Positions 3,753-53,023 of a stretch of DNA of 64,000 nt are shown in pieces. The notes under the pieces are model-generated. The model was not told where the DNA came from and made no database searches. It saw nothing but the letters and a program-made list of their open reading frames with translations. Source of the DNA: Hypericibacter adhaerens (GTDB lineage: Bacteria > Pseudomonadota > Alphaproteobacteria > Dongiales > Dongiaceae); contig NZ_CP042582.1 in NCBI RefSeq assembly GCF_008728835.1, forward strand, positions 682,001 to 746,000, written 5' to 3'. A program made the position numbers and the translations under genes. The first letter of the stretch is position 1; the number at the start of each line of letters is the position of its first letter.

Positions 3753-5204
3753 TCACCCCCGCCAATAGGTCCGGCTCAGCAGCACCAGCACCGTGAGGAG
3801 CTCGAGGCGCCCCAGCATCATGGCGAGCGAGAGCAGCCATTTGGCGCCGTCGGGCAGATGGGCGAAGTTGCCGACCGGGCCGATCTCCGGCGCGAGGCCC
3901 GGGCCGACATTGCTGATCGCCTGCGCCACGCCGCTCATGGACGAGACCAGATCGAGGCCGAAGGCGCTGATCGCGATCGAGATCGCGGCGAAGACGGCGA
4001 TATAGAACACGATGAAGCTCAGGACCGAGCGCACCACCTCGTCGCTCACGGGCTCGCCGTTATAGAAGGGCAGGGAGACCCGGTGCGGGTGGATCAGGTG
4101 GCGGATCTGCGAGCGCGCCACCGCACCCACGACGCAGATGCGGAAGAACTTGATGCCGCCCGAGGTCGAGCCGGTGCAGGCGCCCAGGAACAGCAGCACC
4201 ATGAACATCACCATCGGCATGCTGCCCCATTGCAGATAGTCCTCCGAGGCGAAGCCGGTGGTGGTGATGACCGAGACCACGTTGAAGCTGGAGCTGCGCA
4301 GCGCCTCGCCGAAGGCCCGGCCGTTGGCGTCCCACTGCCAGAGCGTCATGCCGACGATGAAGACCAGGATGCAGGTCAGGTACCAGCGGGTCTGGTCGTC
4401 ATGCCAGAGCCAGGTGAAGTCGCCGCGCGCCGCGCGGGCCAGCTGCACGAAGGCCATGCCACCGATCAGCATGAAGACGGTCAGGATCCATTCGATCGCC
4501 GGGTTGTGGAAATAGCCGATCGAGGCGTCGTGGGTCGAGAAGCCGCCGGTCGCCAGCGCCGCCATCGCGTGGCAGACCGCGTCGAAGGCCGGCATGCCGG
4601 CGACCACCAGCGCCACGGCGCAGAGCGTGGTCAGCGTCACATAGACCGAGATCAGCACGCCCGACACCTGGCTGACGCGCGGGCGGATCTTTTCGGAACG
4701 GTCGGAGGATTCCATGCGGAAGAGCTGCATGCCGCCGACGCGCAAGACCGGCAGCACCGTGACCGCGATCACGATGATTCCGATGCCGCCGATCCAGTGG
4801 AGGAGCGCGCGCCAGAGCAGCACGCCCATCGGTCTGCCGTCGAGATCGGGCATGACCGACGCGCCGGTCGTGGTCAGGCCGGACATGCTCTCGAAATAGG
4901 CGTCGGTGAAGTCGAGGCCGGCACGGGTGAGCATCAGCGGCAGCGTGGCGAAGCCCGCCATGATCGCCCAGCTCGCGGTGACCAGGAGAAAGCCCTCGCG
5001 GGCCCGGAGCTGCGGCGCCTCGGCCGGCCGGAAGCCCAGCACCAGGGCGCCGCCGGCAACACCCGTGATCACCGCCGAGGCGGCGAAAGCCCTCCAGTCG
5101 GGATCGGACGCCAGCGCGTCGATCGCCGCCGGCAGCAGCATCGCGACCGCCAGCGCCAGAAGCAGAAAGCCGATGATGAAGAAGACCGCACGGAAATCAG
5201 GCAT
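3753..5204 (-). CDS. trkH: TrkH-family potassium uptake membrane subunit
   Basis: Ion-translocating subunit of the Trk/Ktr K+ uptake system in the inner membrane. The 483-residue, highly hydrophobic protein has the repeated membrane-pore-membrane organisation. Selectivity-filter-like glycines are visible in TTTGASVM, ATGGFSTHD, TTTGFASED and SNVGPGLAP, and ACTGSTSGGIKFFRI matches the conserved TrkH loop. No TrkA partner gene lies nearby, so the regulatory subunit must be encoded elsewhere. Start ATG at 5204 begins directly with the first membrane segment. Confidence 0.92.
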   Translation of the reverse strand: MPDFRAVFFIIGFLLLALAVAMLLPAAIDALASDPDWRAFAASAVITGVAGGALVLGFRPAEAPQLRAREGFLLVTASWAIMAGFATLPLMLTRAGLDFTDAYFESMSGLTTTGASVMPDLDGRPMGVLLWRALLHWIGGIGIIVIAVTVLPVLRVGGMQLFRMESSDRSEKIRPRVSQVSGVLISVYVTLTTLCAVALVVAGMPAFDAVCHAMAALATGGFSTHDASIGYFHNPAIEWILTVFMLIGGMAFVQLARAARGDFTWLWHDDQTRWYLTCILVFIVGMTLWQWDANGRAFGEALRSSSFNVVSVITTTGFASEDYLQWGSMPMVMFMVLLFLGACTGSTSGGIKFFRICVVGAVARSQIRHLIHPHRVSLPFYNGEPVSDEVVRSVLSFIVFYIAVFAAISIAISAFGLDLVSSMSGVAQAISNVGPGLAPEIGPVGNFAHLPDGAKWLLSLAMMLGRLELLTVLVLLSRTYWRG

Positions 5205-5256
5205 GGGGCCTGGTTCGCCGCATCAGTGGGATGACCCCGGACGCCGTCCGCGGCAC

Positions 5257-5934
5257 TCACACATTGACCATGGCCGCAGCCGCGGGCTGGCCGATGATGG
5301 CGAGGAATTCGCGCCGGGTGCGGGCATCGGTGCGGAACAGGCCCAGCATGCGGCTGGTCACCATGCTCATCCCGGGCTTATGCACGCCGCGCGTCGTCAT
5401 GCATTGATGGGCGGCGTCGATCACCACTGCGACCCCCTGGGGCTGCAGCACCTCGTCGATCGTGTTGGCGATCTGGGCGGTGAGCTTCTCCTGGATCTGC
5501 AGCCGCTTGCTGTAGATGTCGAGCACCCGGGCGAGCTTGCTGATGCCGACCACGCGCTTGCTGGGAAGATAGGCGATATGGGCGCGCCCGATGATGGGGG
5601 CGAGGTGATGCTCGCAATGCGACTCGAAGCGCATGTCGCGCAGCACGACCATCTCGTCATAGCCGCCGGTCTCCTCGAAGGTGCGCTGCAGCACCTCGAC
5701 CGGATCCTCCTCGTAGCCGCCGAAGAATTCCTCGAAGGCGCGCGCGACTCGGGAGGGCGTGCCGACCAGCCCTTCGCGGCTCGGATCGTCCCCGGCCCAG
5801 CGAATCAGGGTGCGGACGGCCTCCTCGGCCTCGTCGCGCGACGGCTTCGCCAGCAGCACGCCGCCATTCTTCTTCACCAGGCGCGGGCGCGGGCCGGCGG
5901 CGCGTTCGGGTTTGGCGGGGCGGGGCTGCTTCAT
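5257..5934 (-). CDS. folE: GTP cyclohydrolase I
   Basis: Converts GTP to 7,8-dihydroneopterin triphosphate, the first step of folate (and preQ) synthesis. It shows the zinc/catalytic motif SHCEHHLAP, then GISKLARV, the QIQEKLT segment, and [11 protein letters not shown] that supplies the second zinc cysteine. The start at 5934 (MKQPRP) has AAGGA 9 bases upstream. An in-frame ATG at 6015 would add 27 arginine-rich residues. A basic tail of about 30 residues precedes the core, common in alphaproteobacterial FolE. The final length is 225 aa. Confidence 0.95.
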
Positions 5935-6051
5935 CGCGTCATGTCCTTGTTCGGGGCGCCGGGCGGCCGCTGATCGCGGCTCCCGGAAACGTCGGGAACG
6001 CGCCGGAAACTTCAAGGGGGCCCGGCTCGTCCGTCGGCGGGCGGGTCTCGG

Positions 6052-6444
6052 TCAGTTCAGGCGTTTGGGCTGGTGCGGGCTGTCGAGCGAGAAGGCGGGA
6101 ACCGCCACGTCGAACCGCTCGCCGGTTTCGTTCTCCATCTGGTAGGTGCCGACCATGAAGCCCGACGAGGTCGGGAGCGGCGTGCCGCTGGTATATTCGA
6201 ACGACTCGCCTGGCTTGAGCACGGGCTGCTCGCCCACCACGCCCGCGCCGCGCACCTCCTGCACCTTGCCGCGCGCGTCGGTGATCCGCCAGTAGCGCGA
6301 CCGCAGCTGCACCGTCTCCGCGCCCTGGTTCTCGATGCGCACATGGTAGGCCCAGACAAAGCGCTGCTCCTCGGGTGCCGACTGGTCGTCGAGATAGGTC
6401 GGCTCGACCGTGATGCGGATGGATCGCGTGCTCTGGCTGTACAT
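6052..6444 (-). CDS. apaG: ApaG domain protein
   Basis: A 130-residue single-domain protein with the immunoglobulin-like ApaG fold. Characteristic segments are [46 protein letters not shown] and a GFMVGTYQM turn. ApaG has been linked to Co2+ resistance and, more recently, to dinucleoside-polyphosphate capped RNA metabolism, but its exact role here is not shown. It is close to the family length of about 125-130 aa and lies upstream of folE on the same strand. Confidence 0.92.
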
Positions 6445-6664
6445 GGGGCACCTTGGCGTGGGGGGGCACCTTATCGACGCGGACTGCCGTCGGCGACCGA
6501 AAACGGCAGCGTCCCGTGGCCCGTCGTTCGTGAAGGCATTCTAGGCGGCAGCAGGGCTATGTCCAGCCGCGCAGCCTCGCCTTATCCCCACGCTCGCTGG
6601 GGCGATCGATCGGTGAAGCGATCGCATCGAGCTTCGAGTCATCCCTCAAACGAGGGCGCTGGCG

Positions 6665-6933
6665 TTTCTTCCGGCGCTCGCTGGTCCGGCCGATCCCCGA
6701 AAGAAAAACGGCACCGGAATTTCTTCCGGCCCTGAGCCGGACCCTGTCGGTCCGACCGATCCCCAAAGGAAAAACGGCGCCGGAATTTCTTCCGGCCCTG
6801 AGCCGGACCCTGTCGGTCCGACCGATCCCCAAAGGAAAAACGGCGCCGGAATTTCTTCCGGCCCTGAGCCGGACCCTGTCGGTCCGACCGATCCCCAAAG
6901 GAAAAACGGCGCCGGAATTTCTTCCGGCGCCGT
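6665..6933. repeat. 66-bp tandem repeat array of terminator-like hairpins
   Basis: Three essentially identical 66-bp units lie at 6720-6785, 6786-6851 and 6852-6917. They are preceded by a shorter degenerate copy (6665-6719) and followed by the first bases of another. Every junction contains CCGGAA-TTTC-TTCCGG next to an A5 tract, which on the minus strand reads as a GC stem with a GAAA loop followed by T5. Each unit also contains GGACC-CTGTC-GGTCC. The array is intergenic, between the ompA-like gene and apaG, and downstream of the ompA-like stop. Confidence 0.92.
6902..6933 (-). terminator. Intrinsic terminator of the OmpA-like lipoprotein gene
   Basis: On the minus strand a perfect 12-bp stem (ACGGCGCCGGAA / TTCCGGCGCCGT) with a GAAA tetraloop is followed by TTTTT, 27 bases after the stop codon at 6961. 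It is the best-formed member of the hairpin series in the adjacent tandem array. Confidence 0.88.
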
Positions 6934-6960
6934 CTTCGGGTCGAAACCCTGTCGTCGAGA

Positions 6961-7809
6961 TTACTGCTGGATGATGATCTCGACGCGGCGGTTGGCCTGC
7001 TCGCGCACGCCATCGGCCGTGGGCACTGCGGGCTCGTCTTCGCCGCGGCCGGCCGTCGTGATCTGGTCGGCGGCGATGCCACCGGAGATCAGGGCGTCAC
7101 GGACCGCGTCGGCACGACGCAGCGACAGGGCCATGTTGTAGTCCTCCGGACCGGCGCGGTCGGCATGACCGGTCACCGAGATCGGCGGCGTGCCGATCTT
7201 GTTGGCGTCGGAGATGACCTGGTTCACCACCGTCTGGCCATCCGGGCGGATGTTCGACTTGTCGAAGTCGAAATAGACGATGTAGCTGGACGGCATCGCC
7301 GGCTCTGCAGCCGCTTGCTCGGCGGCCGGCTTCATCGCCGCTTCGAGCTCTTCGAGGGCGGCGTAGAAGGCGTTGCGGCAAGCCGCGATGTGGTCGGGCT
7401 GATGGTTCTCTTCGGCCTGCTCGATCCAGCAGTCGAAGCGACCCTGGGCGCGTGCCGCCAGGTCGGGGTGCGAATCACGGGCGCCGGATTCCAGCGCGAC
7501 CATGAGACGGTTGCGGCCTTCGGCAAGATCGCCTGCCCATTCGGCGGGCAGATCCCAGTTGGCCAGCTCTTCCGGCTGCACCACCTCGCCGGCCGCGGCC
7601 TTCAGGCCCTTCTGGGCGAAGTAATCCGCATCCGGCCAGTCGTACATCTGGTCGGCTTCGAAGGTGACGATCTGCCGGTATTCCTCGGCGAGAGCCTTGG
7701 TGAAGGGCGAACCGGTCGCCTCCACCGATTTCATGGCTTGGATGTTGGTCGTGCACCCGGCCAGAAGGCCGACCAGGGCGACAACCCCCAAGGACTTCCA
7801 ATTCAACAT
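6961..7809 (-). CDS. OmpA-family outer-membrane lipoprotein
   Basis: A 282-residue envelope protein. The N terminus MLNWKSLGVVALVGLLAGC is a lipoprotein signal with the lipobox cysteine at residue 19. The C-terminal about 110 residues form an OmpA/Pal peptidoglycan-binding domain: YFDFDKSNIRPDG, ISVTGHADRAGPEDYNMALS, RRADAVRDALI, and a C-terminal NRRVEI. A central helical, acidic region of about 120 residues is not recognised. The start at 7809 has GGGGAG about 10 bases upstream. It probably anchors outer membrane to peptidoglycan. It is not the Pal of a tol operon, since no tol genes adjoin. Confidence 0.88.
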   Translation of the reverse strand: MLNWKSLGVVALVGLLAGCTTNIQAMKSVEATGSPFTKALAEEYRQIVTFEADQMYDWPDADYFAQKGLKAAAGEVVQPEELANWDLPAEWAGDLAEGRNRLMVALESGARDSHPDLAARAQGRFDCWIEQAEENHQPDHIAACRNAFYAALEELEAAMKPAAEQAAAEPAMPSSYIVYFDFDKSNIRPDGQTVVNQVISDANKIGTPPISVTGHADRAGPEDYNMALSLRRADAVRDALISGGIAADQITTAGRGEDEPAVPTADGVREQANRRVEIIIQQ

Positions 7810-8210
7810 CTTTTTTATCTCCCCAAAACCCGCGGGCCACGTTGCCCGTGTGCCGCGGTATTGCACCAGCCCCATGCCCAACCAACCCCCTAGAGGGGCG
7901 CCGAACCAGGCTTTCCGGCGGTACCACCACTGGGCGGATAGTAGGGACGGTACGGTAAATTGTCAAAGCCAGCCGGTGAAATTGGCTGGCTTTCGAACCC
8001 CTTGTGACCAATTTACCACAGTCTGTGGTAAAAATGCAGCCGAACTTGGAGCGCTATCAGAAGGCGATTATCCCTAGCCTTTTGGCTGAGGCTGGCGCCC
8101 GCCCAAGAGCCGGCGGCCGAGGTTGTCAAACCTTCGCCGGGCGGACTCACCGGTGCCTTCCGCGATTCTTGTCGCCTCTCCGGGCATTGCCTATAACGTC
8201 CGGCAGGGAT
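7810..8210. other. Intergenic region between OmpA-like gene and tRNA-Gly, with two inverted repeats
   Basis: No gene is seen in about 400 bases. It contains a 10-bp hairpin AAAGCCAGCC / GGCTGGCTTT (7965-7993, 9-base loop) and a perfect inverted repeat TTTACCACA-GTC-TGTGGTAAA (8012-8032). The first could be a transcription stop. The second has the look of a protein-binding site. Promoters for the lipoprotein gene (minus) and the tRNA (plus) should lie here, but I cannot assign -35/-10 boxes with confidence. Confidence 0.5.
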
Positions 8211-44857: not shown

Positions 44858-46621
44858 ATGTTTTTCGTCCTGTCCTATCTCGCCGGCGCCTTGACCATCG
44901 TCAGCCCCTGCATTCTCCCGGTCCTGCCTTTCGTCTTCGCCAGCGGTACGCGCCCGTTCCGCCGCGGCGGCCTGCCGCTGCTGATCGGGTTGGCCGCGAC
45001 CTTCGCGCTGGTCGGCTCGGTCGCGACGCTGGGCGGCAACTGGCTTACCCAGGCGAACGAAGCGGGCCGGTGGCTGGCCCTGAGCCTGCTGGCGCTGTTC
45101 GGCCTGATGCTGCTGTCGAGCGGTCTCGCCGAGCGCGCGATGCAGCCGCTCGTGCGGCTGGGCGAGAAGCTGGCGGCGAAAGCGGGTGAGGGCGGCGGCT
45201 TCGCCGGCTCCTTCGTTCTCGGCATCGCCACGGGGCTGCTCTGGGCGCCCTGCGCGGGGCCGGTGCTGGGCCTGATCCTGACGGGTGCCGCGCTCAGCGG
45301 CGCCAATGCGCGAACCGTGCTCCTGCTGCTCGCCTATGCCGCCGGTGCCGCGACCTCACTGGCCGTGGCCCTTCTCGCCGGCAGCCGGGTCTTCACCTGG
45401 CTCAAGCGCTATCTGGGCGCCGATCGCTGGGTCAGGCGCGGTCTCGGTGTCGCCGTGCTGCTCGGTGTCGCCATCATCGCGACCGGCATGGATCGCGGCC
45501 TGCTCACCCGCTACTCGGCGGCCAATACCGACGCCATCGAGCAGTGGCTGATCGCCCGGCTCCCCACCGGCCAGGCGCCGGCCGCCATGACGGGATCGGG
45601 CAGCATGACCGGCAGCACCGGCATGACGGGCACGGGTATCGGTACGGGGGAGCCGACGGATTCCGATCTGCTCCAGTTCGCGGGCGCCGTGAGCTGGCTG
45701 AATTCGGCGCCGCTCGACGCCGCCGCGCTCAAGGGCAAGGTGGTGGTGGTCGATTTCTGGACCTATTCCTGCATCAACTGCCTGCGCTCGATCCCCTACA
45801 CCGAGGCCTGGGCCCGGAAATATGCGGATCAGGGGCTGGTGGTGATCGGCGTCCATTCGCCCGAGTTCGCCTTCGAGCGCGATCCCGACAATGTGAAGCG
45901 CGCGATCCGGGATCTGGGCATCACCTATCCGGTCGCGATCGACAACGACTATGCGATCTGGCGGGCGTTCCAGAACCAGTATTGGCCGGCGCACTATTTC
46001 TTCGACGCGACCGGCCGGATTCGCTACCAGCATTTCGGCGAAGGCAAATACGAGCAGTCGGAAGGCGTGATCCAGGGTCTGCTTGCCGAGCGCAACGGCG
46101 CCAAGCCGGCCGTCGGCTTCGTCCAGGTGAACGCCACCGGCAGCCAGGCGGCTTCCGACGAAACCGACCTGCAATCGCCGGAGACTTATATCGGCTATCG
46201 CCGGACCAGCGATCAGTTCGCCTCGGCCGGCGGCCTGAAGCCCGATGAGGCGGTGCTCTATGCGGCGCCGGGCGATCTGCCGCTGAACGATTGGGCCTTG
46301 GCCGGCAACTGGACCGTCAAGCCCGAGCAGGCCACGCTGAACGAGCCTTCGGGCCGCCTCCTCTTCAAGTTCCATGCGCGCGATCTGCATCTGGTCCTGG
46401 GACCCTCGGTGCCGGGTCAGGCGATCCGGTTCCGCGTCACCATCGACGGCGCGCCGCCCGGCGAGGATCGCGGCGCCGACATCGCGGCCGACGGCACCGG
46501 CATGATCGACGGGCAGCGGCTTTATCAGCTCGTCCGGCAAAGCGGCGCGGTGCGTGACCGGCTGTTCGAGATCGAGTTCCTGGATCCCGGCGCCCAGGCC
46601 TATGCCTTCACCTTCGGTTGA
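44858..46621 (+). CDS. DipZ-like CcdA-thioredoxin fusion protein
   Basis: A 587-residue thiol-electron transporter. Residues about 1-235 form a CcdA/DsbD-beta membrane domain (ten hydrophobic blocks merge into about six helices, with [13 protein letters not shown] and [12 protein letters not shown] bearing the redox cysteines). About 280-420 is a TlpA-like thioredoxin domain with active site [10 protein letters not shown]. About 425-587 matches the DipZ-type C-terminal carbohydrate-binding-like module ([27 protein letters not shown]). A Met/Gly/Ser/Thr linker with MTG repeats lies at about 244-262. It passes cytosolic reductant to the extracytoplasmic MsrB/MsrA encoded next. Confidence 0.9.
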
Positions 46622-46637
46622 CGCGGGAGGAGCTTTC

Positions 46638-47234
46638 ATGATCGACAGCGCGAAGAGAACGACCAGGCGCGGCGGTCGAGCCGCCCTCGGCCGGCGCCTG
46701 TTCCTGGCGGGAACGGCGGCCGCGGTCGGGCTTTCGGCCCTGCGCTTGCGGGCATCGCGGCCGGCCGCCGCTGCGGCTTCGCAGGCCGTCCTCATCGTGC
46801 CCGTCAGCAATGACGGGCAGCCGCAAGCACCCGTCCTGCAATCGAAGGTGATCAAGTCCGACGAGGACTGGCGCCGGCAGCTTTCGCCCGAGGCCTATGA
46901 GGTGACGCGCCGGGAGGGGACCGAAGCGCCCTTCTCGGGCGAGAACCTCAATATCCACGATAGAGGGATCTTCCGCTGCATCTGCTGCGACAATGCCCTG
47001 TTCGACTCCGCGACCAAGTTCGAATCCGGCACCGGCTGGCCGAGCTTCTGGCAGCCGATCGCCAAGCAGAATATCGTCGAGACCGTGGATCGCAGCTTCG
47101 GCATGACGCGGACCGCCGTCTCCTGCAGCTTGTGCGACGCGCATCTGGGCCATGTCTTCGACGACGGGCCGGCGCCGACGGGCCTGCGCTACTGCATGAA
47201 CTCGGTCGCGCTGCGTTTCGCACCGATCGCCTGA
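46638..47234 (+). CDS. msrB: Peptide-methionine (R)-S-oxide reductase, exported
   Basis: Reduces R-methionine sulfoxide in proteins. The 198-residue protein has a twin-arginine-like N terminus ([22 protein letters not shown]), so it acts outside the cytoplasm. Zinc-binding pairs CICC and [12 protein letters not shown], and the catalytic cysteine in [11 protein letters not shown] are present. GGGAGGAG precedes the ATG by 6 bases, 17 bases after the dipZ-like stop. Electrons probably come from the thioredoxin domain of that protein. Confidence 0.93.
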
Positions 47235-47257
47235 CCCCGCTCCTCGGGAGGAAACCC

Positions 47258-47929
47258 ATGAGACATGCGCTGAAGATCATCGGATGTGCCGGCATCATGG
47301 CGCTCGCGGCCCTCTGGGCCTGGCCCCGTGCCAGCGCCGGCGTTCCCATTCCCGATCCCAAGCTCGATGCGCCGCTGGCTTCGGCACCGGCCAAGGCGAC
47401 GGCGGTGCTCGCCGGTGGCTGCTTCTGGGGCCTGCAGCTCGTCTTCGAGCACCTCAAGGGCGTCAGCCATGTGACCGCGGGCTATGCCGGCGGCGAGGCC
47501 TCGACTGCCGAGTACGAGCTGGTGAGCTCGGGCACCACCGGCCATGCGGAATCGGTCCAGATCGAGTACGACCCCTCGCAGGTGACCTATGGCGAGATCC
47601 TGAAGGTCTATTTCTCGGTGGCGCACGACCCGACCGAGGTCAATCGCCAGGGCCCGGACGAGGGCACGCAATACCGCTCCTCGGTCTTCGCCGCCGATGC
47701 CGATCAGCAGAAGATCGCCGAGGCCTATATCGCGCAGCTCGACGCGGCCGGCAATTATCCGGCGCCGATCGCGACCCAGGTGGTACCGCTCAAGGGCTTC
47801 TATCCGGCCGAGGCCTATCACCAGGATTACGCGATCCACAATCCCTGGAACCCCTATATCCAGATCAACGACCTGCCCAAGGTTGCGGATTTCAAATCGA
47901 CGCTGCCGGATCTCTATGTCGAGCGGTGA
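47258..47929 (+). CDS. msrA: Peptide-methionine (S)-S-oxide reductase, exported
   Basis: Reduces S-methionine sulfoxide. The 223-residue protein begins with a signal or anchor segment (IIGCAGIMALAALWAWPRASA), then the catalytic GGCFWGLQLVFE, GYAGGEASTAEYELVSSGTTGHAESVQIEYDP and the HDPTEVNRQGPDEGTQYRS block. GGGAGGA lies 7 bases upstream of the ATG, and the gene follows msrB by 23 bases. Together with msrB and the dipZ-like gene it forms a complete extracytoplasmic repair system. Confidence 0.94.
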   Translation: MRHALKIIGCAGIMALAALWAWPRASAGVPIPDPKLDAPLASAPAKATAVLAGGCFWGLQLVFEHLKGVSHVTAGYAGGEASTAEYELVSSGTTGHAESVQIEYDPSQVTYGEILKVYFSVAHDPTEVNRQGPDEGTQYRSSVFAADADQQKIAEAYIAQLDAAGNYPAPIATQVVPLKGFYPAEAYHQDYAIHNPWNPYIQINDLPKVADFKSTLPDLYVER

Positions 47930-47938
47930 GCCTTTCGC

Positions 47939-48757
47939 TCACCAGTGCAGGGTCCAGGTGCCGTTGATTCGGACACCGTGGCCCTGCAGCGTGATGCGCT
48001 CGTCATCGTCGCGGATCTTCTCGACGCGGCCGAGGCGGTGCAGCAGCAGGCCCGAATGGAGCGAGAGCGTGCCCAGCTTGTAGGGGTGGAAGCTCTTGAA
48101 CTTGGTCTCCTTGACCTTGTCGAGATCGGGCTCCTGGCCGAGCTGCACCATGCGGGTCACGTCGTTGGGCGTGACGTTCCAGCTGTCGAGCCCGCCGCCG
48201 GCCTTGGGCAGCACGATCGGCATGGTGAAGGAGAGCGGCGGCACGCCGTCGAGCTTCCGGCCCCAGGGGAGATACTGGTACTGCTGGTCGAAATGGACCG
48301 GCGCGCCCGAGGCGCGATAGATCGCCTGGCCGAGGAAGATGTGGAAGCCGGGCAGGGCGAAACGGTCGGTCAGCGTCACCGGCTCGCCGATCTCGGCCTC
48401 GATCCCGGCGCGAACCCGCTCGTACATGGCGCTCAAGGCCTTGCGCAGCGGCTTGTTCGCCTTGGGCGCGCCCTTGACGTAATCCTCGATCGGATTCTCC
48501 GAGCAGCAGAAATCGAGATAGGCGGCGGTGCCGAGCGAATAGAACTCGGTGACGCCCGTCGTGCCGCGCGGGATCCAGTGCGGACGCAAGGGGCCCGTCA
48601 CCGTCTTGTAGAGGGCCCTGGTCTCGGACAGGCTGAAGAGCGGGATGTCCTTGATTACGGGCGAGATCTCAGCCGTTCGACCAACGAACGCGATATGGCG
48701 CCGTTCGCGCGCGTATCGTAGCCGTCGTAGCCCGGCATCGGGTTCGCTTCCAGACAC
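47939..48757 (-). CDS. Putative 2-oxoglutarate/Fe(II)-type oxygenase of the ATP-grasp cluster
   Basis: About 272 residues, function not known. The C-terminal two-thirds look like a double-stranded beta-helix oxygenase: HFD (H155, D157) in GAPVHFDQQYQYLPWG, a distal histidine in GTLSLHSGLLLHRLG (H234 or H240), and an arginine in DDERITLQGHG that could bind 2-oxoglutarate. The start is uncertain: GTG at 48757 has AAGGGAGG 5 bases upstream and overlaps the ATP-grasp gene by 103 bases; GTG at 48601 is the next canonical choice but drops conserved-looking sequence. It is the last gene of the cluster and probably hydroxylates the peptide substrate. Confidence 0.62.
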   Translation of the reverse strand: MSGSEPDAGLRRLRYARERRHIAFVGRTAEISPVIKDIPLFSLSETRALYKTVTGPLRPHWIPRGTTGVTEFYSLGTAAYLDFCCSENPIEDYVKGAPKANKPLRKALSAMYERVRAGIEAEIGEPVTLTDRFALPGFHIFLGQAIYRASGAPVHFDQQYQYLPWGRKLDGVPPLSFTMPIVLPKAGGGLDSWNVTPNDVTRMVQLGQEPDLDKVKETKFKSFHPYKLGTLSLHSGLLLHRLGRVEKIRDDDERITLQGHGVRINGTWTLHW

Positions 48758-49536
48758 CAGAACCTCCCTTTGTCGTCGAGCTTGAAATCCCATCCGGCGA
48801 AGACGAGGCCGGCCGCCTCGGTCGCACGCGCGAGCCGGCGCGCCAGGTCCGCCGGAACCGGAAATTCGCGAAAGCGGGCGACCTCGGTGCGGTAGTCGAC
48901 CGCGTCGCTCTCGATCATCTCGCCATGGACGTCCGCGCCGACCACATGGATGCGCAGGTCGCGGCCCAGGATGCGGCGCTGCAGATGGACGGGGCCCCGC
49001 GCGGCGACGAAGCCGGTGAAGTCCTCGGGCGCGACCGCGCGCGTGTCGGCGCGGATACCCTGAACGGATTTGGCGATGGTGGGCCCTTGCCCCGCGAAGA
49101 CCGACAGCCGCTCGGCGCTGCTGGAGGTGAGGCTCGCCGGCACGTCGAAGCCCTGCCGGCGCAGCCAGGCCTCGTGCAGCGGCTTCGAGCCGTTGTCGGC
49201 GGCATGGCCCGGGCGGTTGATGACGACACCTTCGCTCTGCTCGAGCCAGGCTGCGAGCCCGCCCACCAGCGAGCGCCAGCGCCGCCTCGCGTCGCGTTCC
49301 TCGAGCACCGGCGAGAGATCGATCAGCCGGCAATAGACGGCATCGCCGGGCGCCAGGGCCAGGCTTTCGCCGCCGAAGGCGAAGCGCGCCGGCTCGCCCG
49401 AGCCCAGCGGCAGCCGCCAGCTTCCCTCGACCGCGGCACGCAGGTTGAGCAGCTTGAGATCGGCGCCCATGCCGGCCGCGGTCTCGACGAAATGGACCAG
49501 CGTCGGGTCGCTGTCGATGCCGATCGCGGTCAGCAT
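48655..49536 (-). CDS. RimK-type ATP-grasp ligase (candidate peptide-modifying)
   Basis: A 293-residue ATP-grasp enzyme. Visible features are the pre-ATP region with INRPG and NGSKP (about 107-119), ATP-binding Lys in TIAKSVQG (K156), QRRILGRDLRIHVVG (187-200), and the metal-binding WDFK (249-252) and EANPMPG (263-269). This is the layout of RimK and of graspetide ligases, which make isopeptide or ester bonds to side-chain carboxylates. Its ATG overlaps the stop of the upstream gene (ATGCTGA). With a repeat-bearing small protein and an oxygenase nearby, a peptide crosslinking role is the best guess. Confidence 0.8.
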   Translation of the reverse strand: MLTAIGIDSDPTLVHFVETAAGMGADLKLLNLRAAVEGSWRLPLGSGEPARFAFGGESLALAPGDAVYCRLIDLSPVLEERDARRRWRSLVGGLAAWLEQSEGVVINRPGHAADNGSKPLHEAWLRRQGFDVPASLTSSSAERLSVFAGQGPTIAKSVQGIRADTRAVAPEDFTGFVAARGPVHLQRRILGRDLRIHVVGADVHGEMIESDAVDYRTEVARFREFPVPADLARRLARATEAAGLVFAGWDFKLDDKGRFWCLEANPMPGYDGYDTRANGAISRSLVERLRSRP

Positions 49537-50339
49537 GCAAGCGCCTCGATCAGGGCCGGCGCCGCCTCCTGCCAGACCGGCAGGAGCTGGTCGACGCGCG
49601 GATAGGGATCGATGCGGGCGAGGCGGGCCTGCGCCAGCCTCGGATCGAGGCCCCAGGTCACGACCGCGAAGCCCAGCCCCAGCTCGCCGGCGATGGCGAT
49701 GCTGCGTCCTTCCAGGTCGAAGCCGTCGAGGGCTGCCAGCGTCGAGCGCCAGGCCTGCCGGTTCACCACCACCACGCGCTCATAGGCTTCGTCCTCGATC
49801 ACGGGCCTCGCCCGGTAGGGCGCATCGCCGGTATCGGGCCGGACCCAGCGCCGCGCGCGGCCCCGCACATCCTCCACCGCCCAGCTGCGATCGTCGGGCG
49901 GGCCGGCATCGGCCTCGTCGCGGGCATAGAGCTCGGGCGCCATCGCGGCCCGGGCGCGGCGCTCGGTGATGGCGGCGGAATAGCACCAGCCGGCCTCGAA
50001 GCCTTGCAGCGTCGGCCGGTTCAGCACGGGCGAGCGGGCGAGGGCCGCCGCCGCCCAGAGCGCCGCGTGGCTCTCGCCGCTGAGGAAGCGCGCACCGGCA
50101 TCGCGGTTCGGGATCGGCGGCGATGTCGGGCGCAGCAGCATCGGCAGGTCGGGTTCGACGCGGGTCGCGTCGGCCTCGCCGACGATGGTGAACATGCGCC
50201 CCGCATCCTCATGCTCCATCACCACCAGCCGGCGGTCATGGCGCCGGGCTTCCGCGGCGATAAGGGTCGCCACCGGATCGCGCCGGTCGGCGATCAGGAG
50301 CAGATCGGCCGCGGCTTCGTTCGCGCAAGGGCGGGGCAA
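49530..50339 (-). CDS. Degenerate ATP-grasp-like protein, partner of the ligase
   Basis: A 269-residue protein not assigned to a family with certainty. Its plan resembles the neighbouring ligase: NRPT at residues 107-110 (same spacing as NRPG in the ligase), and near the end ELGLGFAVVTWGLD and RIDPYP where the ligase has WDFK and EANP. The metal ligands are altered (E to R, N to D) and no lysine-bearing ATP motif is evident, so it is probably inactive in catalysis, perhaps a substrate-binding partner. The stop overlaps the ligase start (ATGCTGA), so the two are made in equal amounts. Confidence 0.55.
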   Translation of the reverse strand: MPRPCANEAAADLLLIADRRDPVATLIAAEARRHDRRLVVMEHEDAGRMFTIVGEADATRVEPDLPMLLRPTSPPIPNRDAGARFLSGESHAALWAAAALARSPVLNRPTLQGFEAGWCYSAAITERRARAAMAPELYARDEADAGPPDDRSWAVEDVRGRARRWVRPDTGDAPYRARPVIEDEAYERVVVVNRQAWRSTLAALDGFDLEGRSIAIAGELGLGFAVVTWGLDPRLAQARLARIDPYPRVDQLLPVWQEAAPALIEALAC

Positions 50340-50361
50340 GAGCGTCCCTCCCGCCGGCCGG

Positions 50362-50886
50362 TCAGATGACCGGGCCGCTCTTCAGCAGGTTCTGCATCCG
50401 CTCGCCATGGACGCGGCCCACCTGGTCGATGAGGCTCCAGTTGAGCATGGCGGGAAGGCCGTAGCGGATCATGGGGTCGCCCTGGTTCTCGGCATTGCCG
50501 AGCTTGGTGTCGCTCTTCTCCTTGAAGTCCTTCCCTTCCTTGAAATCTTTTCCCTCCTTGAAGTCCTTGCCCTCTTTGAAATCCTTTCCTTCCTTGAAAT
50601 CCTTGCCTTCCTTGAAGCCCTTGCCTTCGACCGGCGGCTTGCCGAGGCCGCCCAGCGAGCCGGCGAGGCCGCCGGCCTTCCAGCGGTCGATGCCGTCGAC
50701 GGCGCCGTTCTTGCCGTCTGTCTTGCGGTCGGGGGAGGCGGCGATGGCGGCGCTGATCAGGTCCTGCACGGTCTTGGCGGTGACGCGCCGGTTCTCGCGC
50801 GCCATCTGCAGGAGGATGTCCCGGCGATGGCTGAGGGACAGGAACGCACCCGGCTTCTGGGATTTCGGTTTCGCACGGCGAGACAT
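50362..50886 (-). CDS. Small protein with six Lys/Asp/Glu hexapeptide repeats, candidate peptide precursor
   Basis: A 174-residue protein. A basic, helical N-terminal region (about 1-60) and a Gly/Lys linker lead to six perfect or near-perfect hexapeptides at residues 89-124: KGFKEG, four KDFKEG, and KDFKEK. A further 50 residues (DPMIRYGLPAMLNW and HGERMQNLLKSG) close it. The repeats supply regularly spaced Lys, Asp and Glu, the donors and acceptors used by ATP-grasp peptide ligases. GAGGGAGGGG precedes the ATG by 3 bases. Between repeats the codons differ while the amino acids do not. Confidence 0.72.
   Translation of the reverse strand: MSRRAKPKSQKPGAFLSLSHRRDILLQMARENRRVTAKTVQDLISAAIAASPDRKTDGKNGAVDGIDRWKAGGLAGSLGGLGKPPVEGKGFKEGKDFKEGKDFKEGKDFKEGKDFKEGKDFKEKSDTKLGNAENQGDPMIRYGLPAMLNWSLIDQVGRVHGERMQNLLKSGPVI
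50515..50622 (-). repeat. 18-bp coding repeat (six KDFKEG-type units)
   Basis: Six 18-base units encode residues 89-124 of the small protein. Third positions vary freely (Asp GAT/GAC, Glu GAA/GAG, Gly GGC/GGA/GGG, Lys AAG/AAA), while the encoded units stay nearly constant. The repeat is therefore old and conserved at protein level rather than a fresh DNA slippage product. Confidence 0.9.
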
Positions 50887-50897
50887 GGGCCCCTCCC

Positions 50898-51263
50898 TCA
50901 GCGGCCGGTGAGCTGCTTCAGCAGCTCGCCGACATTGATGCCGTCGATGACGAGGCCCTCGACATCGCAATTGCGCAGCTCGACGCCGCGCAAGCTCGCA
51001 TTCTCCACGACGCAGCCGTCGAAGCCGCAACCCTGGAAGCTGCTGCCTTCGAAGTTGGTCTCGCTGAAGAGGCAGTTGAGATAGCGCGTCTCGGAGATGA
51101 CCGAATGGTCGTGGCGGATCCGCGTCAGGGTCGAGCTCGCGATATCGGCATTGGCGACCAGCATGTTGGGCTGGAACAGCGGCTGCACGGTGGCGCCGTC
51201 CTTCGCCGCGCCGCGAGGCTTGGCCACGGCCCGCTTCGGCCGCAGCTTTCTGGCTGCATTCAT
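50898..51263 (-). CDS. Pentapeptide-repeat protein
   Basis: A 121-residue protein. After a basic N terminus (NAARKLRPKRAVAKPRG) it has about ten five-residue turns of the A(D/N)LXX type: RYLNC LFSET NFEGS SFQGC GFDGC VVENA SLRGV ELRNC DVEGL VIDGI. It should fold as a short right-handed quadrilateral helix. It ends in NVGELLKQLTGR, as many pentapeptide proteins do. It is probably the first gene of the minus-strand cluster; only 11 bases separate its stop from the repeat-protein start. The start at 51263 has GGGGAGG 7 bases upstream. Confidence 0.78.
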   Translation of the reverse strand: MNAARKLRPKRAVAKPRGAAKDGATVQPLFQPNMLVANADIASSTLTRIRHDHSVISETRYLNCLFSETNFEGSSFQGCGFDGCVVENASLRGVELRNCDVEGLVIDGINVGELLKQLTGR

Positions 51264-51817
51264 CGGAAAACCTCCCCAAAGGGGCCGGCCGCCCACCCAA
51301 AGGGCACCGTCACCGGCCCGGAATACAATCTTATGTGCGCGCAGCCGTGTTACAACGGGAGCAGAGACGAAGGGCGCGGCACCGGAGCGCGATCGATGGT
51401 CGTCATCGGTGCACCATCATCGGCGGCGAGTCCGGTGGCGGCGAGCTGCGACATCGCGAAGATGGGCTTGATGGCGATTCAATCTCTGCCCGCGATGCTG
51501 TCCGCTTGTGGTTGCGCGGTGACGACCGCAATAGATATGGGAATGCGGTCCTTAGATGGCGCGCCAACCAAATCGCCGGCGATGTACGATCCGGAGCCCG
51601 CGGCGATGCGGGATTCATTCCGATCGCAGCCCCAAGACGGGGCTTCTCGATGCTGTGGTAAATCTGTGTTGGTGGCCGGCGCCAGGCGCCGACGGGCATC
51701 CGGCCTTCCCGCCGACCCACCCCTGCCGGGGTATTGCGCCGGTCCAGGGGGGCGGGTTTGGTGCTCCCGGATCACGATCTTCCTTCCGGATTCCGCAACC
51801 GACAGGCAAAGCGACTT
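51264..51817. other. Intergenic region between the ATP-grasp cluster and a serine hydrolase
   Basis: About 550 bases with no supported gene. Open frames here lack a ribosome site and codon bias. It must hold the promoter of the minus-strand cluster (near 51264-51400, including the AT-leaning TACAATCTTATGTG at 51332-51345) and the promoter of the hydrolase. No palindrome with strong arms was found. Confidence 0.45.
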
Positions 51818-53023
51818 ATGGACCAGGCCCCCTTGATGCAAGGTTTCCCGCCCGCCCAAGACCGCCAGGTGACGCTGGCCAATTGGCGGCTGCCGCCCTT
51901 CAACCGCTGGGGCTTCCAGCATGTGCGCGAGATCCTGCCGACGGCCAGCATCGCGGGGGCCGGCCGGCGCCACGGCGCGCTGGGCCGTTCCGAGCGCCGG
52001 ATCGCCAAGCTCGCCTTCCCGGGGCCGGACGGCAAGGAATGGACCGTCGGGCGGATGCTGCCGGAGACCTTCACCGACGGCTTCGTGCTGATGCAGCGCG
52101 GCCGGATCCTGGCCGAATGGTACGACGCCGGCATGACCCCCGAGACGCCGCATATCGTGTTCTCCGTCAGCAAGTCGCTCACGGGCGCGCTCGCGGGCAT
52201 CCTGGTCGAGCGCGGCCAGCTCGATCCCGATCTGCCGGTGACGCGCTACATCCCCGAGGCCGCGGGCTCGGCCTATGGCGACTGCACGGTGCGCCATGTG
52301 CTCGACATGACCGTCTCGATCGAGTTCGAGGAGAACTATCTCGATCCGCACGGCGTGTTCGGCCGCTACCGCCTGGCCACGGGCTGGAACCCGCTGCCGG
52401 AAGGCATCAAGCCGACCGATCTGCGCAGCTTCCTCGTGACCCTCAAGCGCGACAAGCGCGCTCATGGCAGCCTGTTCCACTACGTCTCGCCCAACTCGGA
52501 CCTGATGGGCTGGATCCTCGAGCGCGCCTCGGGCGTGCCCTATGCCGAGCTCCTGAGCGAGGCGATCTGGAAGCCGCTCGGCACCGAGCAGGATGGCTAT
52601 GTCACGGTCGACCGGCTGGGCGCGCCGCGCTCGGCCGGCGGCATCTGCGTGACCACGCGCGATCTCGCGCGCTTCGGCGAGATGATGCGGCTGCGCGGCC
52701 TCGCCTCCGGCCGGCAGATCGTGCCGGGGCGCTGGATCGACGACATCACGGAAGCGGGCGATCCCAAGCCCTGGCAGATCTCGGAATCCGGCAAGCTCTT
52801 CGCGCCCGAGGGCCGCTACCGCAGCAAGTGGTACATCATGGGCTATCCCTCCGGCGCCTATTGCGCGGTGGGCATCCACGGGCAGTGGATCTATATCGAT
52901 CCCGCGGCCGACATGGTGATCGCGAAACATTCCTCGCAGCCGCTGCCGGTGGACATGCCGACCGACAACCTGCTGCTGGCGGCGTTCGACGCGCTCGGGC
53001 GCTGGCTCGAGAAAAGCGCTTGA
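51818..53023 (+). CDS. Serine hydrolase of the beta-lactamase/6-aminohexanoate-dimer hydrolase family
   Basis: A 401-residue penicillin-binding-like hydrolase. The SxxK nucleophile is in VFSVSKSLTGALAG (about residue 113), the YxN-type motif is replaced by HYVSPNSDLMGWIL, and the third motif is GIHGQWIYIDP. No signal peptide is visible, so it probably acts in the cytosol, as the nylon-oligomer hydrolase relatives do, on an amide, ester or peptide. The ATG at 51818 is chosen where homology begins; an in-frame ATG exists at 51734. It is divergent from the ATP-grasp cluster. Confidence 0.88.
   Translation: MDQAPLMQGFPPAQDRQVTLANWRLPPFNRWGFQHVREILPTASIAGAGRRHGALGRSERRIAKLAFPGPDGKEWTVGRMLPETFTDGFVLMQRGRILAEWYDAGMTPETPHIVFSVSKSLTGALAGILVERGQLDPDLPVTRYIPEAAGSAYGDCTVRHVLDMTVSIEFEENYLDPHGVFGRYRLATGWNPLPEGIKPTDLRSFLVTLKRDKRAHGSLFHYVSPNSDLMGWILERASGVPYAELLSEAIWKPLGTEQDGYVTVDRLGAPRSAGGICVTTRDLARFGEMMRLRGLASGRQIVPGRWIDDITEAGDPKPWQISESGKLFAPEGRYRSKWYIMGYPSGAYCAVGIHGQWIYIDPAADMVIAKHSSQPLPVDMPTDNLLLAAFDALGRWLEKSA

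Follow-up and report, generated by a model that had tools for sequence, protein, structure and literature searches.

A Conserved Five-Gene Unit in Hypericibacter adhaerens Joins a Graspetide-Like ATP-Grasp Ligase and a Predicted 2-Oxoglutarate Oxygenase to a Lys/Asp/Glu Repeat Protein

Results and Discussion

A Compact and Conserved Five-Gene Unit

We analyzed a 64,000-nucleotide stretch of the Hypericibacter adhaerens genome (contig NZ_CP042582.1, positions 682,001 to 746,000; hereafter the window), taken from an assembly that consists of one contig of 5.87 Mb with a completeness of 99.5%. Five side-by-side minus-strand genes at 47939-51263 encode a pentapeptide-repeat protein, a repeat protein with a Lys/Asp/Glu array that we propose as precursor, a protein of putative ligase-partner function (the "second protein"), an ATP-grasp ligase, and a predicted 2-oxoglutarate (2OG)/Fe(II) oxygenase (Table 1). 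The unit probably makes a cross-linked, hydroxylated protein, all of whose chemistry we infer by analogy with related systems.

Table 1. Features of the five-gene unit and the adjacent PF00144 gene (window coordinates)
Feature	Position	Strand	Basis
Pentapeptide-repeat protein, 121 aa, encoded first in the unit	50898-51263	-	PF00805 7.1e-06, 25.9 bits (cut-off 20.2)
Repeat protein, proposed precursor/substrate, 174 aa	50362-50886	-	Array flanked by conserved N- and C-terminal parts
Repeat array, K89-D126 of the precursor	50509-50622	-	KGF KEG KDF KEG ... KDF KEK SD
Second protein, 269 aa, TTG start, proposed catalytically dead ATP-grasp partner	49530-50339	-	Position beside the ligase, motifs seen by eye
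ATP-grasp ligase (graspetide synthetase-like), 293 aa	48655-49536	-	TIGR04187 1.5e-18; 7drm 4e-22
Predicted 2OG/Fe(II) oxygenase, WelO5-like fold, HxD...H...R site	47939-48757	-	AlphaFold2, Foldseek, invariant residues
PF00144 beta-lactamase-family gene, adjacent, divergent, probably outside the unit	51734-53023	+	PF00144 3.7e-39

The tight packing described in an initial annotation of the locus, made from the sequence alone, is borne out by the gene coordinates: gaps of 11 nt (50887-50897) and 22 nt (50340-50361) lie on the two sides of the repeat protein gene, and the second protein gene shares 7 nt with the ligase gene. The reading frame of the oxygenase stays open within the ligase gene, and the nearest ATG, GTG or TTG upstream of its conserved fold is GTG 48757, which is its probable start and produces an overlap of 103 nt. 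This spacing suggests that the five genes form one transcript, as initially proposed, while no sigma-70-like promoter was found at the unit. The PF00805 match, above its cut-off, likewise agrees with the identity first given to the pentapeptide-repeat protein.

The same five genes occur in the same order in a sister genome of the genus and in a metagenome-assembled genome (MAG) titled Rhizobium sp. Q54, giving the co-occurrence that the initial annotation had suggested looking for. Identities to the sister genome and Q54, respectively, are 88 and 70% for the pentapeptide-repeat protein, 87 and 65-66% for the precursor, 80 and 56% for the second protein, 86 and 67% for the ligase, and 92 and 71% for the oxygenase (73% over a longer stretch in Q54). 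Common flanks in the window and the sister genome carry little information, the two being colinear in this region; the nucleotide match to Q54 is confined to 47938-51182 of the window, with unrelated flanks, and the transferable unit is therefore the five genes. All five are under purifying selection relative to the sister genome, with ratios of nonsynonymous to synonymous substitution rates of 0.14-0.39. Pfam and NCBIfam profile searches found no peptidase or exporter among the five genes. We rejected a defense-system reading because a PADLOC search at 1e-3 gave no match for the five proteins.

The Ligase Resembles Graspetide Maturases

The best profile for the ligase is the ATP-grasp ribosomal peptide maturase family TIGR04187, and, used itself as a profile against Protein Data Bank (PDB) chains, the ligase retrieves 7drm, which we take to be the plesiocin enzyme PsnB, as well as 9bou (4.1e-11). 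K156, D193-L-R195, D250, E263, and N265 align with like residues of 7drm and other maturases, upholding the initial description of a ligase with intact motifs. The window ligase thus has both the ATP/Mg residues and the D(F)R motif of graspetide ATP-grasp synthetases, with the F of the motif replaced by L in the window and by V in Q54. In a tree of 16 ligases, those of the window, sister genome, and Q54 group with the ligases of three loci from other genomes of the class (L114, L115, and L116) and of a Candidatus Megaera polyxenophila plasmid; this is only a hint, since the support is weak (76/72), and the branches are long.

Ligase matches at E <= 1e-10 were found in 9 of 385 genomes of the class, including its own, and the other eight neighborhoods were inspected by eye. 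In two of them (L114 and L115) the ligase is immediately preceded by a second grasp-like gene; two others (L116 and L107) have Gly/Ser-rich small open reading frames (ORFs) nearby, and two (L117 and L111) have classical-looking acidic cores; in L118 the ligase lies within a C1-metabolism-like cluster, and the L110 neighborhood has no evident reading. The link between ligase and repeat protein drawn in the initial annotation therefore holds for the close homologues (67 and 86% identity; both with the repeat protein), while these eight distant ones go with other or no evident substrates. Plasmid searches returned 7 records at 1e-5 for the window ligase and 62 for the L115 ligase, 8 of the plasmid records being inspected. 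Searches at 1e-20 of 18 other genomes around G094 and 16 around G086 gave no additional relatives of the L115 ligase, and no relative of the ligase was found in viral contigs.

The Oxygenase Is Predicted to Be a 2OG-Type Hydroxylase

An AlphaFold2 model of the oxygenase, built from 42 sequences, has a mean predicted local distance difference test (pLDDT) score of 87.9, and its best Foldseek match is the WelO5 halogenase 5j4r (1.9e-11). Structural comparison (VIA) places WelO5 first (5iqs_A; Z 20.1, rmsd [root-mean-square deviation] 3.2, 231 residues aligned), followed by the N-substituted amino-acid dioxygenase 3w21 (Z 13.9, rmsd 4.4, 200 aligned). H135, D137, H220, and R234 (P0005 numbering) are invariant in 42 of 42 sequences, so that the HxD...H pattern originally noted finds support in both the modeled fold and the conserved residues. 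By its predicted fold, its HxD...H site, and its 2OG-binding Arg, we assign the protein to the 2OG-type enzymes. An Asp in HxD leads one to expect hydroxylation rather than halogenation; although the window enzyme shares its fold with the WelO5 family, it retains this Asp, so hydroxylation is expected of it and a halogenase reading was rejected. The G166D variant 5iqu is also among its structural matches.

Genome searches located the oxygenase or its relatives in 2 of 41 related genomes (its own and the sister), 3 of 385 class genomes (its own and two at 30 and 34% identity), and, with the oxygenase as a profile, 2 of 398 phylum genomes (its own and G543). The two class relatives have no such ligase within the 20 kb read; by eye, one lies beside an NHLM-type export locus and one in a phage-like region. 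At L008 (1299-8796; G289), a distant relative adjoins a HlyD-like gene and two NHLM-type ABC-exporter genes by eye, suggesting another peptide-modifying setting. The family is common in IMG/VR contigs, where 128 of 134 pattern matches were confirmed and 80 retrieved; in the DNA retrieved, none of these 80 loci has a match at 0.01 to a profile of any of the four remaining proteins of the unit. A plasmid search at E <= 0.01 returned nothing. The protein also matches phrog_24927 (4.8e-21), a family of unknown function. At L102 (9223-10666; G543), two tandem copies of the family lie in a locus that looks phage-tail-like by eye, with an AAA ATPase nearby, and several phage contigs likewise carry two members in a row.

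A Gapless Array of Lys/Asp/Glu Hexapeptides

The six Lys/Asp/Glu hexapeptides first seen in the repeat protein were confirmed as five exact FKEGKD units and one FKEKSD in both the window and the sister genome; Q54 has four FKEGKD units and one FKEGSD. Tandem Repeats Finder gives a period of 18 nt with 6.1 copies and an 83% match. The five FKEGKD units of the window are five distinct DNA sequences that differ at third codon positions only, so the array is maintained at the protein level and is not a fresh duplication. In all three genomes K2, E3, and D6 are constant in every unit, and G4 and K5 change only in the last. Each KEGKD is a KxxxD motif, of which the window and sister arrays have six and Q54 five, and Lys is the only possible donor residue in the window array.

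We counted the Lys residues that have an Asp or Glu at each offset, with the array bounds picked from ends common to the homologues. At offset +4, each of the 12 acidic residues of the window array has a Lys partner, and K124 is the only one of the 13 Lys left over, as is also the case in the sister genome; Q54 has 10 Lys and 10 acidic residues, every one of them paired. Offset +1 leaves K89, K124, and D126 unpaired in the window and K91 and D122 in Q54. At the array start, K89 retains its partner E93 while the following position, Asp elsewhere, is Gly; at the array end, the last Asp retains its partner Lys while the Lys preceding that Asp is lost. The register matches the experimentally demonstrated KxxxD of corallotide; it is suggestive but falls short of proof, because the bounds were chosen from shared ends and offsets in a periodic array differ at the ends only.

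The repeat protein matches no family at E 1e-3 in Pfam or PHROGs, and its sole NCBIfam match is to a collagen-like adhesin (5.3e-4; 19 of 325 bits). Among the 385 class genomes, the precursor profile finds its own genome and six weak matches (8.1e-07 or worse, to the repeat part of the profile), none counted as a relative; the one inspected, L096, has a SKESKP repeat. No FKEGKD-FKEGKD DNA was found in viral contigs.

The Second Protein and Partner Genes at Related Loci

The second protein was initially described as ATP-grasp-like with altered metal ligands. By eye it has an NRP motif and an ATP-grasp-like C-terminus in which the Glu/Asn metal ligands are replaced, but profile searches of Pfam and NCBIfam, HMMER, and hhalign against the ligases gave no significant link to ATP-grasp, and the AlphaFold2 model, from two sequences, has a mean pLDDT of 34.8 and is unusable for fold assignment. 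The protein occupies the place where a ligase-like partner sits in L114, L115, and the Megaera plasmid. The Megaera partner is tied to ATP-grasp (TIGR04185, 1.9e-06, 27 of 425 bits), and those of L115 (0.026) and L114 (10.7 bits to a ligase profile) are weakly so. Because the tests of the window protein were not significant, reading it as a dead ligase rests on position and inspection by eye. It has matches in 2 of 367 class genomes, one of them weak at 1.6e-4, and plasmid searches at E <= 0.01 with it and with the L115 partner returned nothing.

On the Megaera polyxenophila plasmid pPCS109 (L119, 4696-8196), a K/D-rich 53-aa ORF, a further small ORF, an ATP-grasp ligase, a degenerate ATP-grasp, and two PF03171 dioxygenases lie in a row. 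Its ligase scores 73 bits against the window-type ligase profile, and we count this locus, another combination of ligase and oxygenase, in favor of the chemistry proposed for the window. L115 contains a kelch-domain protein (4032-6380, plus strand; PF01344 3.1e-07) with a C-terminal tail of K/E hexads of the EIKEKA type, followed by the weakly grasp-like gene (6415-7092) and the ligase (7089-7964); here the tail of a large protein is possibly what the ligase modifies.

Relation to Known Systems

The initial annotation did not recognize the combination with an oxygenase as a described class, but a paper of March 2026 (PMC13097080), cited here from part of its text, reports corallotide, made by an ATP-grasp ligase and a 2OG oxygenase from a large precursor with five KxxxD motifs. 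There, CorB cross-links Lys to Asp within KxxxD, CorC acts once the cross-link is in place, hydroxylating the Lys delta carbon (5-hydroxylation), and also activates CorB; CorD (PF00144), of unknown function, is considered dispensable. The authors call corallotide the first 5-hydroxyisopeptide and place it in graspetide group 15, stated to be confined to Corallococcus, a genus of predatory soil bacteria, with the oxygenase occurring only in that architecture.

The window unit shares with corallotide, as described in that text, the ATP-grasp ligase, the 2OG-Fe(II) oxygenase, and an unusually large precursor with KxxxD repeats behind an N-terminal domain. In contrast, the CorA motifs are separate (KIVAD being the one shown), whereas the window array consists of gapless hexapeptides. 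CorC belongs to PF13640, to which the window oxygenase has no match at E <= 1, a distinction drawn from the description of CorC only. Corallotide has a PF00144 partner, and the available text mentions neither a second ligase-like gene nor a pentapeptide-repeat gene, both of which the window unit has. The window unit also occurs in the Rhizobium-titled MAG, with oxygenase relatives in phage contigs, unlike a group stated to be restricted to Corallococcus. The PF00144 gene beside the window unit is kept in the sister genome, whose flanks are colinear in any case; it is probably not a CorD equivalent, because the 1.85 kb that the Q54 contig extends upstream of the unit contains no such gene, and the best match in that genome is 31% identical. 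Since the PF13640 oxygenase and the Corallococcus-only range of that group are not shared, we do not file the locus under group 15; it is best read as a variant of graspetide chemistry with corallotide-type logic and partly different parts. It may already sit unnamed among groups 25-43 of that data set, for example in group 34, described there as long repeat precursors with unmatched proteins (PMC13097080, in part).

Many characterized graspetide cores have Thr/Ser to Asp/Glu esters. With graspetides in general (plesiocin, microviridin, and tgm clusters) the window unit shares an ATP-grasp maturase related to TIGR04187 and 7drm, but Lys is the only possible donor in its array, and the unit has no exporter, whereas several graspetide groups carry a protease or exporter (PMC13097080, in part). 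A survey of ATP-grasp enzymes, also cited from part of its text (Makarova et al. 2022, PMC8939145), links branches 7 and 8 to peptidases with no detectable precursors, branch 8 joining an ATP-grasp to a truncated inactive ATP-grasp. The latter resembles what we propose for the second protein, which has no significant match of that kind; unlike both branches, the window unit has a candidate substrate and no peptidase. On a Burkholderia stagnalis plasmid (L131, 2109-3716, plus strand), an M43 peptidase (PF05572 8.9e-16) with a T/D-rich repeat tail, of D-V-H-P-T type by eye, lies directly before an ATP-grasp ligase. ATP-grasp loci with peptidases may thus have their missing precursor in the tail of the peptidase itself. 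Among papers sharing at least four of the five terms for our locus, the range that was covered, the phrase "pentapeptide repeat" is absent.

Proposed Chemistry and Alternatives

Graspetide-like modification, as initially suggested, is supported by the TIGR04187 and 7drm matches, by the 2OG-type oxygenase, and by five genes that travel together. In the scheme we propose, the ligase, which perhaps depends on the second protein as a partner, would phosphorylate Asp/Glu side chains of the array, and the Lys four residues upstream would attack. The resulting isopeptide bonds would be of the type Lys(i)-Asp/Glu(i+4) and would form at the KxxxD sites at least. Guidance of the ligase probably comes from the conserved N-terminal part of the precursor, and the oxygenase would then hydroxylate the bridged Lys, as CorC does in corallotide. 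The product would probably be a rigid stapled protein that is kept in the cell, where the pentapeptide-repeat protein perhaps acts as its scaffold, because the five genes include no protease or exporter and conserved sequence lies on both sides of the array.

Several observations weigh against this scheme. The second protein could not be tied to ATP-grasp; the ligase scores 67 bits on TIGR04187, far below the curated cut-off of 350 bits, and shares 18-29% identity with the 13 ligases beyond its own trio to which it was compared. The +4 register outdoes +1 solely at the array ends. Related loci do not repeat it: the K/E tail of L115 is unenriched at +4 (7 vs. 6.2 in shuffled sequences) and enriched at +5 (15 vs. 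6.3), and the Megaera ORF is not clearly enriched at +4 (3 vs. 1.1, P 0.077) and is enriched at +1 (6 vs. 1.2). Phage contigs commonly carry relatives of the oxygenase, which also occur in a phage-tail-like locus without such a ligase. Finally, two convergent ABC-transporter-like genes lie downstream of the Q54 unit by eye, making export possible there.

A bolder form, which we regard as doubtful, is that overlapping Lys(i)-Glu/Asp(i+4) isopeptide staples with hydroxylated Lys run through the array as a ladder without interruption, making it a rigid rod within a cell-retained protein, made by a ligase that needs a dead ligase-like partner. In the window array such a ladder would engage all 12 acidic residues and all but one of the 13 Lys, each ring overlapping the next, and the array ends fit it.

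Two other explanations are both improbable. RimK enzymes share the ATP-grasp ligase fold, and a RimK-like ligase might extend the repeat protein, at its side chains or its end, with amino acids such as glutamate, forming no rings, while the oxygenase hydroxylates free Lys. The RimK-family profile TIGR00768 does match the ligase (4.2e-08), but TIGR04187 is stronger, the top match of known structure is 7drm, the matches listed include no chain named RimK, and tailing has no need of the Lys/acid +4 register. We give as little credence to a strictly corallotide-like system, with one KxxxD staple per unit (six in the window), an oxygenase that activates the ligase, and the PF00144 gene in the role of CorD; the enzyme types, the KxxxD motif, and the PF00144 gene adjoining the unit in the window and sister genome agree with it, but the lack of a PF13640 match, the Q54 neighborhood, the two extra conserved genes, and the stated Corallococcus-only range of group 15 (PMC13097080, in part) do not. 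A chance neighborhood, in which a structural repeat protein, an oxygenase, and a ligase with unrelated functions happen to share an operon, is very improbable, for although the products have never been observed and oxygenase relatives occur in other settings, the block is intact between different flanks, is under purifying selection in all five genes, and has a published precedent.

If the cross-linking and hydroxylation we propose do take place, a second system of ligase, oxygenase, and KxxxD repeats, with no PF13640 match for its oxygenase, would suggest, together with the Rickettsiales plasmid locus, more than one origin of hydroxylated Lys-Asp staples and a general purpose for them. The gapless array would, if so modified, be a stapled rod that is genetically encoded and tunable, and the second protein offers a direct test of partner-dependent ligase activity.

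Neighboring Genes

The convergent neighbors of the unit (44858-47929) encode a DsbD/thioredoxin-like protein, MsrB (PF01641), and MsrA (PF01625), an ordinary methionine-sulfoxide repair set.

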